Below, one piece after another: positions 6,753-60,149 of a DNA stretch of 64,000 nucleotides; the stretch's first letter is position 1; each line of letters begins with the position of its first letter. The notes under the pieces were generated by a model. It saw only the letters and a list, made by a program, of their open reading frames with translations. It searched no databases and had not been told where the DNA came from. A program made the translations under genes and the position numbers. Source of the DNA: Meghimatium bilineatum. Taxonomy: Eukaryota > Mollusca > Gastropoda > Stylommatophora > Philomycidae. The stretch covers positions 37,549,129 through 37,613,128 of the forward strand of contig CM067315.1 in assembly GCA_034231615.1 (NCBI GenBank). Direction: 5' to 3'.

Positions 6753-7637
6753 CATCATCAGCAGATGCCGTCTCCGCAATGAAGGTTGGCTGAAACATAT
6801 CTCCAACATCTCCTGTCTCTTGTTTTGGTGGTGCACTCTACTAGACTGTTACCTGTCAATCTTGTCATGTTATTCTCCCACTTGTATCTCTGTCTACCTC
6901 TTGTTCGCTTCCCTTTGACTTTACCCTCAAGTAAGGTCTTCAATAAGGTGTCATGTCTTTTAATGTGTCCAAAATATTTTATTTGCCTGATATTTATTTT
7001 TCTTACTAATTATTTCTTCATATTAAATGTCTTTAGCACCTCTTTATTTGTTTTCTTCTCTTTCCATGATGTTCTCCCTATTCTTCTATATACCCACATC
7101 TCAAAGGCATCAATTTTGTCTTCTAAATGTTTATTTAGTGTCCATGTTTCTGAGCCATACATTATTATAGAATAGATATAGCATTTTATAATTCATATTT
7201 TTAACTTGTTTGTAATGTGTTTAGATATTAATAATTTCCTCATGTCATTGAAGGTACTTTTGGCCATTCCTATTCTCCGTTTAACTTCTGTTTCACATCT
7301 GCCATCATTAGTGACTATGTGCCCAATATTTGATGTTTTACTTGTTGTTGTTTCTCTCCATGTATGTTTATGTTTAGCCCCTGTTCTTCTGTGTCTTTGC
7401 TGATTATCATGGTTTTTGTTTTTTTTCATATTTATATACAGTCCATATTCATTACTTGATTTATTGACTTGATCTATTAGTCTTTGTAGTTCATGTTCAC
7501 TTTCCGCCAAAAGAACAGTGTCATCTGCATATCTAATGTTGTTTATTATTTTCCTATTGATTTTGAGTCCTCGAATTTCTTCTATATTTTTAAAGATATT
7601 CTCTGTGTAGATATTAAATAGGCTTGGTGATATAATA
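6753..7637 (-). mobile_element. 5'-truncated LINE L-A with RT motif
   Basis: Flanked by an identical 11-bp duplication. Read on the minus strand it starts inside the reverse transcriptase at ISPSLFNIYTENIF, then has the catalytic YADD box (IRYADDTVLLAESEHELQR) and the downstream GLYINMKK and HIVTNDGR motifs. After frameshifts come IKYFGHIKRHDTLL, KGKRTRGRQRYKWE and the end SANLHCGDG. It terminates in a short ATGATGATG-like tail. RT copies RNA into DNA at the target site; this copy lacks the endonuclease and most of the RT and is frameshifted, so it cannot act. Three other copies in the window share the same 3' end and orientation. Confidence 0.92.
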
Positions 7638-7648
7638 ATATTCTCCAT
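7638..7648. repeat. Target-site duplication of L-A insertion, right
   Basis: ATATTCTCCAT, identical to 6742-6752. It contains the ATG (minus strand) that seems to start the LINE reading frame, so that start codon belongs to the host flank. Confidence 0.85.
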
Positions 7649-7726
7649 GAATCTTAAAGGTGCAAGTGAGAACCAGACATGACAGCACGATCAACAACAC
7701 GAGACATAAACAAAATGCAAACAGCT

Positions 7727-7834: not shown

Positions 7835-8299
7835 GAATGGAATATTAATCATAGAAATTAAAATCTTCTTTCTCTAAATCATGCTGGTTGTGACCCTGCA
7901 CTCCTATTGTTGGAGCGCTATCTATGGTGATCAAGTCATTTGCCTTATGGTCACAATGTCGTCAGCTTTATCTCAGACAGCCACGGTGTGCTTGCAGTTG
8001 CTTTTTCTGGGACATCCCTATTGATTATCTTTTTCTATAGCAAAGTGCTATATACCCTGAGAGATTCCTTCCATTTGTAGATTACTGTTCTGTTGAGAAA
8101 CATTGCCGCCATGATGCACTGTTGACATTGAAGAGACAGTGTAAGATTGGACCTTTTCAATATGTAACAAGGCAACAATAACTTGCAAAGATTATACTGC
8201 TGGGAAATATTCAGTGCGAAAGGAGGCGTGTTGGTGATTGAAACTCTTGATTTTATATCATTGGAAGGTTTTGGCATAGATGTTTTCATACTATTCCTT
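7835..8299. other. Unassigned stretch
   Basis: Nothing supported. Confidence 0.5.
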
Positions 8300-9090
8300 G
8301 TAGCAACAGAAATGATATGTCTACGTAGAATCTTCGAAGTAACAATGAAAGATAAAATGAGAAACTAAAACATCAGAAGACTAACAAACACAATGTCAAT
8401 CCTGGATTACATTAGAACACTAACAAACACAATGTCAATCCTGGATTACATTAGAACACTAACAAACACAATGTCAATCCTGGATTACATTAGAACACTA
8501 ACAAACACAATGTCAATCCTGGATTACATCAGAAGACTAACAAACACAATGTCAATCCTGGATTACATCAGAACACTAACACATAAAATGTCAATCCTGG
8601 ATTACATCAGAAGACCAACAAACACAATGTCAATCCTGGATTACATCAGAAGACTAACAAACACAATGTCAATCCTGGATAACACCAGAAGACTAACAAA
8701 CACAATGTCAATCCTGGATTACATCAGAAGACTAACACATAAAATGTCAATCCTGGATTACATCAGAAGACTAACAAACACAATGTCAATCCTGGATAAC
8801 ACCAGAAGACTAACAAACACAATGTCAATACTGGATTACATCAGAAGATAACTGATTAAGTGTTATCGTATGCATCTCAAATACCATCAGACAGTGTCCC
8901 TCAAAAAGCATTACTATGCAGGTACGATGATTACATAGCCAGGGGCAGACAACGCAAACTATGGAATACAGAAATTAAAGAGTCAACGAAAACCAACATA
9001 TATGAAACACACAAAAAGCCATCTCCAGAGAACTCTTCTACTCCTGATACTGCAAGGCACAAAGTGGTATAAAGCGACAAGAAAGAAAAA
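8300..9090 (+). mobile_element. LINE L-D 3' end interrupted by its own minisatellite
   Basis: The left part translates as EMICLRRIFEVT and NIRRLTNTMSILDYIR, the right part as SYASQIPSDSVPQKALLCRY, RGRQRKLWNTEIKES and ETHKKPSPENSSTP. These match, in order, the L-D copy at 59290-59790 (MACxRSILGIS, DIRQRTGTDPILEYIKR, RLPSDSIPQQPMLHRY, PRKRWTTEIKE). Between them lies the 39-bp array at 8369-8851, whose 13-residue unit is the LTNTMSILDYIRR segment. The element is 5' truncated and non-functional. Confidence 0.88.
8369..8851. repeat. 39-bp minisatellite inside LINE L-D, about 12 copies
   Basis: Unit includes ACACAATGTCAATCCTGGAT and TACATCAGAAGACTAACAA. It encodes MSILDYIRRLTNT in the LINE frame without stops. 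Unit subtypes (AACACCAGAAG; ACACATAAAATG) recur in the same order twice near the 3' half, suggesting duplication of multi-unit blocks. Confidence 0.95.
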
Positions 9091-9191
9091 GATTCCGTAT
9101 AACTGAGGATATTGTCGTTTAGCGGGATATTTTTGTCTGGCTGGCTCCAACGTGTCAGCACAACGGCTCTAACGGGTTACGGTTTTTATTA
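9091..9191. other. Short spacer
   Basis: Nothing supported. Confidence 0.4.
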
Positions 9192-20072: not shown

Positions 20073-20165
20073 ATATAGACAGCGTGACCGATCGGCAGTA
20101 TGGTAGTATTGTCGAAAGCCACGATAAAAAGACACCGCACGTTAGAAAAATGAATAATTATAGCT

Positions 20166-20370
20166 AAGTTTCTAGGAAAGAGGGCGACAGACATACCACG
20201 GAGGGTAAGTTTCTAGGAAATAGAACAACAGACAGACGAAGGCGAGTAACTTTCTAGGAAAGAGAACAACAGACAGCCCATGGAGGGTAGGTTTTTAGGA
20301 AAGAGAACAACAGACAGAAAAAGGAGGGTAAGTTTCTAGGAAAGACAACAACAGGCAAACCAAGACTGCG
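20166..20370. repeat. 41-bp minisatellite, 5 copies
   Basis: Unit AAGTTTCTAGGAAAGAGAAC then AACAGACAGA...GGAGGGT, spaced exactly 41 bp. Confidence 0.93.
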
Positions 20371-21294: not shown

Positions 21295-21665
21295 GCATCA
21301 TTAAGTGCTGTCTGCGCAATGAAGGATGGCAGCAACAGACTTGAAGCTTCCAACTGAACTTCTTCAATTCTGAACTGTCTCTTGTCTTGGTGGTGCACTC
21401 TGTTAGACTGTAATCTATTCATCTCGCGATGTTACTCTCTCACTTGTATCTTTACTTCCCTCTTGCACGAAATTCCCACGACTTTACCCTCAAATAAGGT
21501 CTTCAATAAAATGTTATGTCTTTTAATATGCCCGAAATTTGTATTTGTTTGATCTTTATTTCTTCTAATAATTCTTTCTTCGCACGAAGTGTTGTTAGAA
21601 TCTCTTTATTAGTTTTATTATTTGTCAATGATACTCTACCTATTCTTCTTTATATCCACATCGTG
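21295..21665 (-). mobile_element. LINE L-A 3' end, copy 2
   Basis: The plus strand begins with GCATCATTAAGTGCTGTCTG CGCAATGAAGG and aligns block by block with the L-A 3' end at 6753 (TCTCTTGT, TTGGTGGTGCACTCT, AAGGTCTTCAATAA, CATGTCTTTTAAT). Heavily diverged and 5' truncated at about 21665, where L-E sequence starts on the opposite strand. Confidence 0.82.
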
Positions 21666-36197: not shown

Positions 36198-36424
36198 TGG
36201 AAAAATCAGAAATAGTGCAGGCGCGTTTCTTGCTGGATTATCCTACTTTATTTATAGAGCGGAGAAATTTCATGTCAATCCGTACCTACGCATCGGCATC
36301 ACACACGAACCATCCACTACGCTGGGAAGCATCACAAGAAGCAGATTAAAAAGAAAGCATTCATGAACTGGCAGAAGATGTTAAAGAACAGAGAAGCGCA
36401 TTAGGTTATAGACCATAAGGACTC

Positions 36425-36740
36425 ATCATCGTCATCATGTGCCGTCTCCGCAACGAAAGTTGTCTGCAACAGATCTCCAACATCCCCTGTCTCTTATTTT
36501 GGTGGTGCACTCTACTAGACTGTAACCTGTCCATCTTGTGATGTTACTCTCCCACTTGTATCTCTGTCTACCTCTTGTTCTCTTCCCTTTGACTTTACTT
36601 TCTAGTAAGGTCTTCAATAATGTGTCATGTCTTTTAATAATGTCCAAAATATTTTATTTGCTTGATCTTTATTTCTCTTACTAATTCTTTCTTCATATTA
36701 AATGTTTTTAGAACCTTTGTTTTTTCTCTTTTCTATTCAT
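36425..36740 (-). mobile_element. LINE L-A 3' end, copy 3
   Basis: Minus-strand translation: RHDTLLKTLLESKVKGKRTR, GRQRYKWESNITRWTGYSLV and RGCWRSVADNFRCGDGT, an intact C-terminal block close to that at 6753. On the plus strand it starts after ACTCATCATCGTCATCATG, the ATG-rich tail. A weak AGGACT duplication may flank it. 5' truncated. Confidence 0.88.
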
Positions 36741-36829
36741 GAGGACTAGTGGGAAAGTCAATCTATCAACTTCCATGCTAATGATAATAATATTTAATAG
36801 GAAATTGGACAATGTTATTACAGCGCAAA

Positions 36830-37689: not shown

Positions 37690-38700
37690 TGGCAGTATAT
37701 TTCGTTGCTCCAGTGTTTTCTAAATATGTGAACACGAACACCAAAACTGCACTATTTAAAACGATCATTATGCCATCACTATGCTACCAATGTCAAACAT
37801 GGACTAGTGTTGTTAGTACAACATAATTCAAAAGAGAACTTGTTACAACCGAAATTACTTGTCTACGTAAAATCCTCGAAGTAACAATCAGAAATGGAAA
37901 CATCAGAAGGCTAACAAAACAAACGCAATGCAAATCCTGGATTATGTCAGACGGCAATATATTAATTTGTTTTCAAATGCTTCCAGATTACCATTAGTGT
38001 CCCTCAAAACAGGCAGTACTATACAGACATGATGTTTAAAAACCAGGGGCAGACCATGCAAACAATGGATTACAGAAATAAAGGAGTCAACGAAAACAAA
38101 CATATATGAACCACACCAAAAAAGCCATCTCCAGATAACTTCTACCCCTGGTGCTGCAAGGTACAAAGCTATCTCCAGACAACTTCTACCCCTGGTACTG
38201 CAAGGTAAAAAGCCATCTACAGACAACTTCTACCCATGGTGCTGCAAGATACAAAGCCATCTCCAGAGAACTTCTACCCCTGGTGCTGCAAGACACAAAC
38301 CCATCTCCAGAAAACTTCTACCCCTGGTGCTTCAAGGTACAAAGCCATCTCAAGACAACTTCTACCCCTCGTGCTGCAAGGAACAAAGCCATCTCCAAAG
38401 AACCTCTATCCCTGGTGCTGCAAGGTACAAAGCCATCTCCAGAGAAGTTCTACCCCTGGTGCTGCAAGGTTCAAAGCCATCTCCAGAGAAGTTCTACCCC
38501 TGGTGCTGCCAGGCACAAAGCCATCTCCAAAGAACTTCTACCCCTTGTGCTGCCAGGTACAAAGCCATCTCCAAAGAACTTCTACCCCTGGTGCTGCCAG
38601 GCACAAAGCCATCTCCAAAGAACTTCTACCCCTGGTGCTGCCAGGCACAAAGGCGCATAAAGCAAACAGAAGAAAGAAAGAAGAATATATTTTTTAAATT
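37690..38700 (+). mobile_element. LINE L-D 3' end expanded by a 44-bp minisatellite
   Basis: Translation: LFKTIIMPSLCYQCQTWTS, then ITCLRKILEVTIRNGNIRRL, QILDYVRRQ (with frameshifts) and GADHANNGLQK. It aligns with L-D at 8300 and 59290. After YMNHTKKA the last 44 bp of the LINE are amplified (38127-38651). At the far end the LINE resumes with GCACAAAGGCGCATAAAGCA, matching 9058 onwards (GCACAAAGTGGTATAAAGCG). Inactive. Confidence 0.87.
38127..38651. repeat. 44-bp minisatellite inside LINE L-D, about 12 copies
   Basis: Unit AAAGCCATCTCCAGAGAACT, TCTACCCCTGGTGCTGCAAG, GTAC. In the L-D copy at 8300-9090 the same segment is present once (AAAGCCATCTCCAGAGAACT at 9016). Unit ends change from GCAAGGTAC to GCCAGGCAC toward the 3' side. 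The 44-bp unit rotates the frame, so three plus frames are open in turn. Confidence 0.95.
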
Positions 38701-44237: not shown

Positions 44238-44385
44238 CCACTTTATCGCAGGGTACAGAATACCCACTGCCAAGTGTCATGAAGTCGATTAGGTTGCAGT
44301 ATAATGACTTGTATTCGTTTCTATAAATCGATACTCATTAGATCCATATTTTACAATGCTGCGTGAGGAATCGATACGGTAACCG

Positions 44386-44705
44386 GACAAAATATTCTAA
44401 GACAAAATATTCCCAGACAAAATATTCCCAGACAAAATATTCCAGACAAAATATTCCAGACAGAATATAGCAGACAAAATATTTCCAGACAAAATATTCC
44501 CAGAAAAAATATTCCCAGACAAAATATACCAGACAAAATATTCCCAGACAAAATATTCCCAGACAAAATATTCCCAGACAAAATATTCCCAGACTAAATA
44601 TTCCAGACAAAATATTCCAGACAAAATATTCCCAGACAGAATATTCCCAGACTAAATATTCCAGACAAAATATTCCAGAAAAAATATTCCCAGACAAAAT
44701 ATTCC
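44386..44705. repeat. About 16-bp subterminal array, left arm
   Basis: AGACAAAATATTCCC units of 13-17 bp, about 20 copies, with slight length changes. Confidence 0.93.
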
Positions 44706-44971
44706 TAAATAGCCAAAAATTAGGTAAAAAATTATAGTAATAGTAACATAGACAAATTGGTGAAGTAATTTCAGACAATCTCCTAGGAGATACGGCAGGT
44801 TTTATGCAAACATAAGATGTAAACATAGTATAACATCTTGTATACAAACATTCCGTGGAGAGATATGGAGTGACTATGGCTGTGAAAATAACACCTTTAT
44901 TGTTCAAAGTATTGTGTTTCCACAAACTAGAAAAGTCAAATAACAAACATAGGCTGGACTCAGGGATTCAA

Positions 44972-45428: not shown

Positions 45429-45689
45429 TTGATTGAATCCCTGAGTCCAGCCTATGTTTGTTATTTGACTTTTCTAGTTTGTGGAAACACAATACTTTGA
45501 ACAATAAAGGTGTTATTTTCACAACCTTAGTCACTCCATATCTCTCCACGGTATGTTTGTATACAAGATGTCATACTAGGTTTACATCTTATGTTTGCAT
45601 AAAACCTGCCATATCTCCTAGGAGATTGTCTGAAATTACTTCACCAATTTGTCTATGTTACTATTACTATAACTTTTTACCTAATTTTT

Positions 45690-45880
45690 GGCTATGTAGG
45701 AATATTTTGTCTGGGAATATTTTGTCTGGTATATTTTATCTGGGAATATTTTATCTGGAATATTTTGTCTTGGGATATTTAGTCTCGGTATATCTTGTTT
45801 ATGGATATTTTGTCTTGGGGATATTTTGTCTGGTATATTTTGTCCGGTATATTTTGTCTGGGAATATTTTGTCATGGAAC
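45690..45880. repeat. About 16-bp subterminal array, right arm
   Basis: ATATTTTGTCTGGGA units, reverse complements of the left-arm array, about 11 copies. Confidence 0.93.
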
Positions 45881-46078
45881 CAATTTACTCTGGACAGTCC
45901 ATAGATGCTCCGGTCTCATATCCACGTGACCATCTACAGTACTGTAAGACCTCTGCACAGAATTAATTAAGACTTCATTCGTTACGCTGTTGATCATTGA
46001 TTATACTAAATAATTGCTCATGATCTGTGTTGCTTGACAACTTTGTTATATTTCATATATAAGCCTACTATAGACATC

Positions 46079-47089: not shown

Positions 47090-47690
47090 CATCATCAAAT
47101 GCCGTCTCCGAAACGAAGGTTGGCTCCAACGGAACTCCGGCATCTTCTGTCTCATGCCTTCTGTTAAATTGTAACCTCTGTCCATTTCGTGATGGTTATC
47201 TCCCACTTCTATCTCTGTTTACCTCTTGCTCGCCTCCCCTCGACTTTAACCTCAAGTAAGGTATTCAACAAGGTGTCATGTCTTTAAATGTGTCCAAAAT
47301 ATTTTATTTGCCTGATCTTCATTTCTGTCTTCATATTAACTACTGTTTTTAGCACCTCTTTATTTGTTTTCTTCTCTTTCCATGATGTTCTCCCTATTCT
47401 TCTATATATCCACATCCCAAATGCATCAATTCTGTCTTCTAATTATGTGCTTATTGTCCATGTTTCTGAGCCATGCATTAATATACAATAGATGTAGCAT
47501 TTATAATTCTCATTTTTAGCTTGTCTGTAACTTTATTTAGATGTTAATATGTTCCTCATGTCATTGAAAGTACTTTTAGCCATTTCTATTCTCAATTTAA
47601 CTTTGTTTTTATATCTGCCATCATTTGTGATTATGTGTCCAAGATATTGATAATTTTCTACATGTTGTAGTCTCCATTTTCCCCTTGGGA
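47090..47690 (-). mobile_element. LINE L-A 3' portion, copy 4
   Basis: From the tail (CATCATCAAATGCCGTCTCC on the plus strand) it parallels 6753-7380. Minus-strand peptide HIITNDGRYKNKVKLRIEMA, KSTFNDMRNILTSK matches HIVTNDGRCETEVKRRIGMA at 7193-7648. Frameshifted and 5' truncated where the 43-bp array starts. Confidence 0.88.
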
Positions 47691-48057
47691 ATAACAACGA
47701 AGGAATTGCAATGAAGACAGCAGTTTCCTCGGGAATAACAATGAAAGTATTGCAAGAAAGACCAAAGTTGCCTTGAAAGTAACAATGAAAGAATTGCAAA
47801 AAACAACAAAATTATCTTGAAAATAACAATGAATGCATTGCAATAAAAGACCAAAGTTATCTTGAAAATAACAATTTAAGAACTGCAAAAATGACCAAAG
47901 TGATCTTGAAAATAACAATTTAAGAACTGCAAAAATGACCAAAGTGATCTTGAAAATAACAATGAAAGAATTGCAAAAAGGACCAAAATATTCTTGAAAT
48001 TAACAATGAAATAATTGCAAAAAGACCAAAGTTATCTTGGGAATAACAATGCAAGAA
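47690..48057. repeat. About 43-bp minisatellite, about 8 copies
   Basis: Unit GACCAAAGTTATCTTGAAAA, TAACAATGAAAGAATTGCAA, AAA. It starts at the 5' break of the L-A copy. Confidence 0.93.
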
Positions 48058-59289: not shown

Positions 59290-59790
59290 ATTCCAGGGAA
59301 AATGACACCAATCTTCAGAAACAAAAGTGTAGAAGTAAACACCAAAATAAAACTATTAAAAACGATTATTATGCCAACGCTGTGCTACCAAAGCCAAACA
59401 TGGACAACGACAGCACAAGACAAACGTAAACTAGTGACAGCTGAAATGGCATGCTAACGCAGTATCCTAGGAATATCGCTAAGAGACAGAGTGAGCAATG
59501 AAGACATTAGGCAAAGAACCGGCACCGATCCAATCTTAGAATACATTAAAAGACAACAGATAAAATGGTTTGCACACATCAACAGACTACCATCAGACAG
59601 CATACCACAGCAACCTATGCTACACAGATACACTGAAAGCCGACCTGGAGACCGACCACGAAAACGATGGACCACTGAAATAAAAGAGACGACAAATTCA
59701 ACAATATACTCAACACACACGAGGATCATCGCCAGAAAACTCTTCTACCCCTGACACTGAAAGTCAACAAAGGGTTTAGCGAATAGATAG
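59290..59790 (+). mobile_element. LINE L-D C-terminal portion, best preserved
   Basis: Nearly continuous translation: LLKTIIMPTLCYQSQTWTTT, RKLVTAEMAC (one stop), SILGISLRDRVSNEDIRQRT, GTDPILEYIKRQQIKWFAHI, RLPSDSIPQQPMLHRYTESR, PGDRPRKRWTTEIKETTNST, IARKLFYP then TGA, and an ATAGATAGATAA tail. It serves as the unexpanded reference for the two L-D copies that carry minisatellites. 5' truncated. Confidence 0.92.
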
Positions 59791-60149
59791 ATAAAGCTAA
59801 TATATGGCAACCCTGTCACTAACCAACTCAGTAGATACTAGAAAACATGAGTTGTTCCCAACATGTCCCTCACAGTACATTATTATTGATATTCTTATTT
59901 TCTTGTAGGTTCAGCATTGATTATTAAATATGATATTATCGATGTGTCAATGAAGCGGCGCTCAATTCACTTCTCAAGCTCATCTCAAGCAGTAATAATA
60001 AGTGAGACAGCTGAACAACTGTATAACAATAACGATAATACAACAAAGTCGATCAGTTACAATGAACGCACGGACTAGAAGATAATATGATTGTCTCTCA
60101 TTTTATTACGCGTTACTATGACAATACTCGTGTATACGTACATCATTGA
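59791..60149. other. Unassigned stretch
   Basis: Nothing supported. Confidence 0.5.

Follow-up and report, generated by a model that had tools for sequence, protein, structure and literature searches.

Minisatellite beginnings are hard to study, since each is usually a single event. The window analyzed here, a 64,000-bp AT-rich stretch (GC 36.6%) of Meghimatium bilineatum contig CM067315.1 (C18; positions 37,549,129-37,613,128), carries two copies of one LINE, A and B, in which different segments of the 3′ end have become minisatellites. This raised the questions of whether the two arrays arose independently, whether the 3′ end of this LINE is prone to such expansion elsewhere in the genome (we searched the 1.61-Gb assembly in 32 contigs), and which process best accounts for it.

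Two expanded segments of one LINE

Three LINE ends of this family lie in the window, and each array was collapsed to one unit before the three were aligned. Their features are the following:

37722..38120, + strand: LINE copy A, a 5′-truncated remnant of the ORF2 C-terminus with a broken frame (blastn/tblastn to copies B and C; collapsed alignment)
37900-37943, + strand: 39-bp-type segment of copy A, single, 44 bp long (collapsed alignment)
38121..38652, + strand: tandem array of copy A, 12.1 copies of a 44-bp unit, 90% matches (TRF; unit analysis)
38649..38690, + strand: LINE 3′ UTR of copy A behind the array, with an AAGAAAG-rich tail (sequence; alignment to B and C)
8297..8369, + strand: LINE copy B, section ahead of its array (blastn of 8297-8409 to 37839-37944, 72%)
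8370..8852, + strand: tandem array of copy B, 12.4 copies of a 39-bp unit that has the direct repeat ACATCAGAAGA at its ends (TRF)
8853..9092, + strand: rest of copy B to its 3′ tail (blastn of 8793-9064 to 37895-38168, 77%)
9015-9060, + strand: 46-bp segment of copy B, present once (unit analysis)
59344..59796, + strand: copy C, a more distant relative with both segments single (blastn of 59531-59796 to B, 70%; tblastn; alignment)

Decay is evident in all three copies from stops and frame shifts in translation, and the upstream edge of copy A is where genome matches to the query 37690-38120 begin, at query position 33 or close by. An earlier note on this DNA had described about 12 copies of a 44-bp segment in copy A with the LINE resuming behind them, and had described the copy at 8300-9090 as single for that segment with a different one expanded. 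TRF and the unit analysis bear out both descriptions, placing 12.1 copies at 38121-38652 followed by the LINE 3′ end at 38649-38690, and finding the 46 bp once and the 39-bp unit 12.4 times in copy B. In the alignment, the segment arrayed in A is present once in B and C, and that arrayed in B is present once in A and C. The two sister insertions therefore gained their arrays independently, as the note had proposed, with different segments expanded, each single in the other copy, and no common arrayed ancestor; the distance of about 200 bp that it gave between the two segments agrees with our figure of ~180-220 bp in element coordinates.

The note had further called the segment expanded in copy A the last 44 bp of the LINE, a description that needed amending as to length and extent. 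The ancestral segment is 46 bp long, as in copy B, a CT dinucleotide being absent from 12 of 12 copy A units, and it comprises the end of ORF2 and the first part of the 3′ UTR; a further ~20-25 bp of UTR and the tail follow behind the array. Translation of B and C places the ORF2 stop TGA inside the segment; in copy A the last base of this former stop is G in all 12 units (TGG in ten, TCG in one and TTG in one). At five positions of the copy A array, 90% or more of the units depart from the LINE consensus; the losses of CT and of the stop are among these changes. Part of the copy's decay thus preceded the birth of the array. The same CT deletion is fixed in an array elsewhere in the genome (L061), CTCT being an easy place for losing two bases. 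With a unit that is one LINE segment and LINE sequence flanking it on both sides, the copy A array makes a strong case for a transposon-derived minisatellite, and does not represent a new kind; its TRF identity of 90% falls below the 95% filter of the human catalogue, which is a rule of that catalogue and not a biological criterion. We also considered a hairpin in the unit as a cause and rejected it, as either unit, on either strand, folded as DNA no better than shuffled sequences did (z 0.45 to 1.41).

Minisatellites are dense in this window. TRF identified 60 tandem-repeat clusters, 56 of them with a best period of at least 10 (55 by a smallest-good-period rule), and these cover 28% of the window vs 11% of the flanks of 39 LINE copies elsewhere. 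From this local density, finding an array in two of three LINE ends has a P of 0.13-0.34, varying with the definition of an array; the window by itself thus does not mark the LINE 3′ end as special. The partial last copies of 45 window arrays, examined for the signature of direct repeats, had broad remainders, neither blunt nor clearly short-repeat-like.

Several other elements of the window were noted along the way. Rfam and tRNA scans of the window gave no matches, and a search of viral contigs for relatives yielded nothing. Pfam yielded no family that we regard as credible for the C-terminal piece of the LINE: the match to Toxin_YhaV (E 2.7e-4) scores 21.5 bits against a model cut-off of 35 bits and was taken as chance. 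The RVT_1 match at 7193-7690 belongs to another LINE copy, and the LINE under study was read at its C-terminal end only. At 20165-20364, 4.9 copies of a 41-bp unit translate with GKRTTDRPRR-like stretches and continue into LINE-like coding sequence, and possibly represent the expanded ORF2 end of a different LINE. A 44/88-bp-unit array (47683-48057) begins at the boundary of another LINE's fragment, which lies on the minus strand (47090-47677) and to which stretches at 6756-7361, 36424-36742 and 21375-21662 are related. Lastly, an inverted pair (44338-44967 and 45437-45904) has near-equal translations on opposite strands, with an array in each whose unit is GACAAAATATTCCCA or a close complement.

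Recurrence at the same two junctions

To identify sister copies, we used the LINE ahead of the copy A array (37690-38120) as a query and scored the best 40 of 5,884 first-look candidates, copy A included; the 39 others, picked in this way by similarity to copy A, were read. The earlier note had allowed that the segment might be tandem in every copy of this LINE. Instead, it was not tandem in 36 of the 39 sister copies read, and was tandem in L047 (six units), L013 (two units) and L011 (two units, a diverged dimer found by alignment with no TRF call). Most of the segment is absent from L016, L029 and L042, and part of it seemingly from L018. The consensus of 35 sister copies (without L047, L013, L011 and L017) carries the 46-bp segment once, such that the source element of this transposon-derived minisatellite is single-copy for it; 31 of these 35 copies aligned well enough for unit-variant scoring. 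The 39-bp segment was unbroken in 39 of 39 sister copies, a count from a query that spans this segment and so disfavors copies arrayed there. L017 has two LINE 3′-end pieces in immediate tail-to-head succession; the second (1370-1600) may be a tandem insertion, and the arrangement differs from that of the 46-bp tandem copies.

Searching with the array itself, we scored the best 40 of 370 candidates, places being chosen by similarity to the copy A array, and obtained 62 matches at 36 places, copy A and L047 included. We read 30 of the 34 further places, and every one of them was an array of the 46-bp segment, with a period of 46 in 23 and of 43-47 in seven; the array places at C9:6.05, C16:4.47, C1:134.4 and C22:4.06 Mb enter the position test only. 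A LINE body match was present upstream of the array in 28 of the 30 (merely 35-40 bp in L057 and L058), and no such match was found upstream of L079 and L081. By eye, most of the 30 arrays run on into the LINE 3′ UTR. Classical satellite DNA has arrays that extend over many kilobases; here, array sizes ranged from 5 to about 59 units in the pieces read, while the array at C4:37.6 Mb has at least 76 units in a 3.5-kb piece, with matches spanning about 8.9 kb. An internal deletion in L087 (544-548) joins about element position 287 directly to a 46-bp-type array.

Haber and Louis reportedly put forward a direct-repeat model of minisatellite origin. Of the exact direct repeats spaced 20-70 bp apart in the 470-bp 3′ consensus of this LINE, the 12-bp ACATCAGAAGAC at a spacing of 39 is the longest; it forms the ends of the copy B 39-bp array and is already present in the unexpanded LINE consensus. 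The 39-bp array therefore fits this model, having a pre-existing flanking direct repeat of 5-20 bp, and the 46-bp segment does not, as its unit ends have only AAAG in common, one of 126 runs of at least 4 bp in the same consensus. Homology length is thus no explanation for the recurrence of the 46-bp array, given that the homology is merely 4 bp and that the 125 other runs of this minimum length do not recur. Accordingly, the suggestion in the earlier note that breakpoints cluster at short direct repeats applies to the 39-bp unit, and barely to the 46-bp unit.

The junction of copy B also recurs: L082 carries a 39-bp-type array as a 41-bp unit with the same junction. In L068, a 33-bp unit occurs twice within the 39-bp stretch, which makes it a 33-bp and not a 39-bp duplication. 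Both hot segments are expanded in the one LINE copy of L082 (1-259 and 430-897), where the 39-bp-type array runs past the fetched end. We surveyed array units across the window, the 39 sister copies and the 30 array loci, and found a LINE-like match in 43 of 223 array entries, of which 35 corresponded to the 46-bp segment, three to the 39-bp stretch (copy B in the window, L082 and L068), and five to short weak matches taken as chance; the count is biased toward the 46-bp segment, because the 30 loci were collected with the 46-bp array query and the sister query disfavors arrays inside it. The idea of a prone 3′ end is supported by arrays that recur at the same two element positions elsewhere in the genome, and not by the window counts, which alone fit local density.

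Age, descent and chromosomal place of the arrays

We estimated the timing of array birth for 34 arrays, leaving out CpG positions and treating a substitution as fixed when it was present in at least 90% of units. No substitution was common to 90% of units in 16 of the 34 arrays, and unit divergence was nearly star-like in 10 (R 0.70-1.04), including L084, L057, L072, L047 and the dimer L011 (R about 1); the lack of common substitutions suggests that these arrays existed near insertion. In 11 arrays, copy A, L061 and the dimer L013 among them, more than 30% of the unit divergence was fixed. Births thus seem to span much of the copies' life, with the timing estimates lowered by turnover within arrays.

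To compare descent, we used the LINE bodies of 23 arrayed and 36 single copies, each with at least 190 bp. Distances were 0.189 among arrayed vs 0.131 among single copies, the latter being closer together partly because they were picked as best matches. The nearest neighbor was itself arrayed for 6 of the 23 arrayed copies (null 8.6), and the tree, which is star-like, required 17 changes between the arrayed and single states (null 18.4); an AU test did not reject one arrayed clade (p 0.17). One LINE-body column separated the arrayed copies at p 0.0007 (permutation P 0.04). Twelve unit variants occurred in at least four arrays, two of which differed from single copies at p 0.020-0.025, uncorrected. 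The variant 33A>G was present in 6 of 34 arrays vs 0 of 31 single copies (p 0.025, uncorrected), and 46T>C in 4 of 34 vs 12 of 31. Upstream of the unit, a (CA)4-like variant was carried by 8 of 33 arrayed vs 0 of 36 single copies (post hoc, p 0.0017), or by 6 of 33 in its strict form (p 0.009), and the six comparable carriers among the eight had slightly more common derived sites (-0.038 vs -0.023). These data hint at, and are compatible with, one inherited dimer in part of the family. Locus-specific founders are also visible: the unit is 41 bp in L082 vs 39 bp in the window, and four of about six substitutions in the dimer L013 are common to both units. At many array loci, the first unit is unlike the remaining units.

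Arrayed and single copies differed in where they lie, contig ends being provisionally taken here as chromosome ends. The array places had a median distance of 4.2 Mb from a contig end, with 20 of 34 within 5 Mb, while the single copies had a median of 19.8 Mb, with 2 of 36 within 5 Mb (Mann-Whitney p 1.2e-8; 2.9e-7 by relative position) and no departure from a uniform distribution along contigs (KS p 0.35). For the three tandem copies that came from the sister query, and so were selected independently of their arrays, the distance is 17.6 Mb (L011), 7.4 Mb (L047) and 2.2 Mb (L013); for copy A it is 6.7 Mb. Tandem repeats in general followed a similar gradient, covering 27% of the flanks of 12 loci within 5 Mb of a contig end vs 6% for 23 loci at 15 Mb or more (Spearman -0.51, p 8e-5, 55 loci; -0.42, p 0.011, for the 36 single copies). 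When the 19 tandem loci were taken by themselves, no gradient was seen (Spearman -0.09); for single copies it weakened when relative position replaced distance (-0.23, p 0.17). Array size, for which the copy numbers of two long arrays are estimates, was weakly related to contig-end distance (Spearman -0.22 to -0.28, p 0.11-0.21, 34 arrays). Unit divergence relative to age rose weakly with distance (Spearman 0.35, p 0.045), and plain unit divergence displayed no trend (p 0.30).

How the arrays may arise, and what they resemble

The account that we consider rather probable combines fixed weak points in the sequence with DNA-level expansion that varies with position on the chromosome; we prefer it to template jumping by the LINE. 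The starting point would be a dead, 5′-truncated LINE copy in which a minisatellite grows in place. Two recurrent seeds would lie in the 3′ 470 bp, namely the 39-bp segment with its 12-bp repeat and the 46-bp segment round the ORF2 stop with its AAAG. Slippage or misaligned repair joining one end of a segment to the other would yield a dimer, which unequal exchange or repair synthesis would then lengthen into an array, and such exchange or repair would be strongest near chromosome ends. We infer that most dimers formed independently, locus by locus, and that their growth was driven by repair or recombination near chromosome ends. The effect of place argues against a purely inherited array and also against template jumping, which the earlier note had suggested alongside slippage, as closeness to contig ends marks the arrayed copies and not the single ones. 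An inherited dimer in part of the family, or slippage at insertion, still draws some support from the weak homology at the 46-bp junction, from the early arrays and from the few common markers.

Inheritance would mean that one or a few active source elements carried the 46-bp segment at least twice, and that their tandem offspring later grew near chromosome ends. The same junction at every locus with just AAAG as homology is what one birth predicts, and the 16 arrays without fixed substitutions, the R of about 1 in the dimer L011, the confinement of the (CA)4-like variant and of 33A>G to arrayed copies, the slight excess of common derived sites in carriers of the former, and the CT deletion common to the copy A array and L061 point the same way. 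Nevertheless, we regard inheritance as fairly unlikely: the LINE body gives no clustering of arrayed copies, most unit variants are no commoner in arrays than in single copies, inserted arrays would be expected where single copies lie, contrary to the positions observed, and the 39-bp arrays of the window and L082 need a separate birth anyway. In target-primed reverse transcription, the 3′ end of a LINE is copied first. The 46-bp segment sits in this part, bordered by an A-run of variable length, so that the cDNA might slip from AAAG to AAAG and recopy the segment, giving arrays that are multi-copy from birth; the star-like arrays L072, L084 and L057, which date from near insertion, agree with such slippage. 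We hold it to be improbable, because it predicts neither the dependence on chromosomal position nor the late-born arrays (copy A, L061 and L013), and because the 39-bp segment, ~250-290 bp from the 3′ end, recurs too; although 16 of the 34 arrays look early, arrays made at insertion would be independent of place.

A combined process, in which some new copies gain two or more units of the ORF2-stop segment on insertion and recombination near chromosome ends decides which of these seeds become long arrays, seems to us quite doubtful. The 3′ end of the LINE would then encode its own tandem expansion (3 of the 39 sister copies read are tandem), and the LINE, if this is true, would continually provide chromosome ends with satellite seeds. 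Finally, minisatellites might arise anywhere in such regions and strike LINE copies by chance, with no cause specific to the LINE. The 55 window arrays and the two arrayed LINE ends out of three, as frequent as local density predicts, are in keeping with this, but chance would be expected to spread arrays over the 470 bp, while the clearly LINE-like units came from the same two stretches only (35 and three of 223 entries, a query-biased count); we therefore view chance as very improbable.

The favored account, place-dependent expansion from fixed weak points, finds partial parallels in several known systems. The cited part of a human catalogue describes transposon-derived minisatellites as born inside individual TE copies by local expansion, with hot regions in AluS and LTR12, no genomic hotspot, direct repeats of 5-20 bp (most often 7 bp) on the flanks of 300 of the 7,276, and only 6% fitting known mechanisms (PMC3389668; Ahmed and Liang, 2012); compared with this description, two junctions recur here in one LINE family and the arrays lie near contig ends. 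Like the chicken HinfI (SCR1) satellite, which derives from the 3′ UTR and partial ORF2 of CR1, and the common cetacean satellite, from the 3′ end of L1, as outlined in PMC9659126, the present arrays have the ORF2 end and 3′ UTR of a LINE as their repeat unit; unlike the satellite families named there, they number dozens, are mostly short, and mostly have the LINE attached. Human VNTRs are reported to be enriched over the terminal 5 Mb of chromosome arms, most strongly when GC-rich (Linthorst, 2020; PMC7608644). Judging from the portion cited, the enrichment toward ends is alike, while the window here is AT-rich and the contrast falls within one LINE family. Tandem repeats in the 3′ UTR of Lathyrus Ogre elements are described as satellite seeds that the elements commonly carry (PMC7004042), and as far as that description goes, the similarity lies in retrotransposon-borne short arrays as starting material for satellites and the difference in the single-copy consensus of our LINE. 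The telomeric retrotransposons FoTeR (Fusarium) and MoTeR carry VNTRs, those of FoTeR at the 5′ end, upstream of the ORF, according to the cited part of PMC12857005; they too are LINE-type elements with tandem repeats inside copies near chromosome ends, whereas single copies of the present LINE are spread along contigs. Among the titles and abstract openings of open-licence papers, we found no paper on recurrent arrays at fixed LINE junctions near chromosome ends.

In this LINE family, the same few hundred bases lie at many places (5,884 first-look candidates) with an outcome that can be scored at each, which amounts to a set of parallel tests of minisatellite birth. Two separate causes are suggested by these first results: where in the sequence a segment lies (the two junctions, one of which is the strongest direct repeat) and where on the chromosome the copy lies (near its ends). 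A full count of copies would yield birth rates per junction and per region, and would thereby test both the direct-repeat model and the role of chromosome ends.
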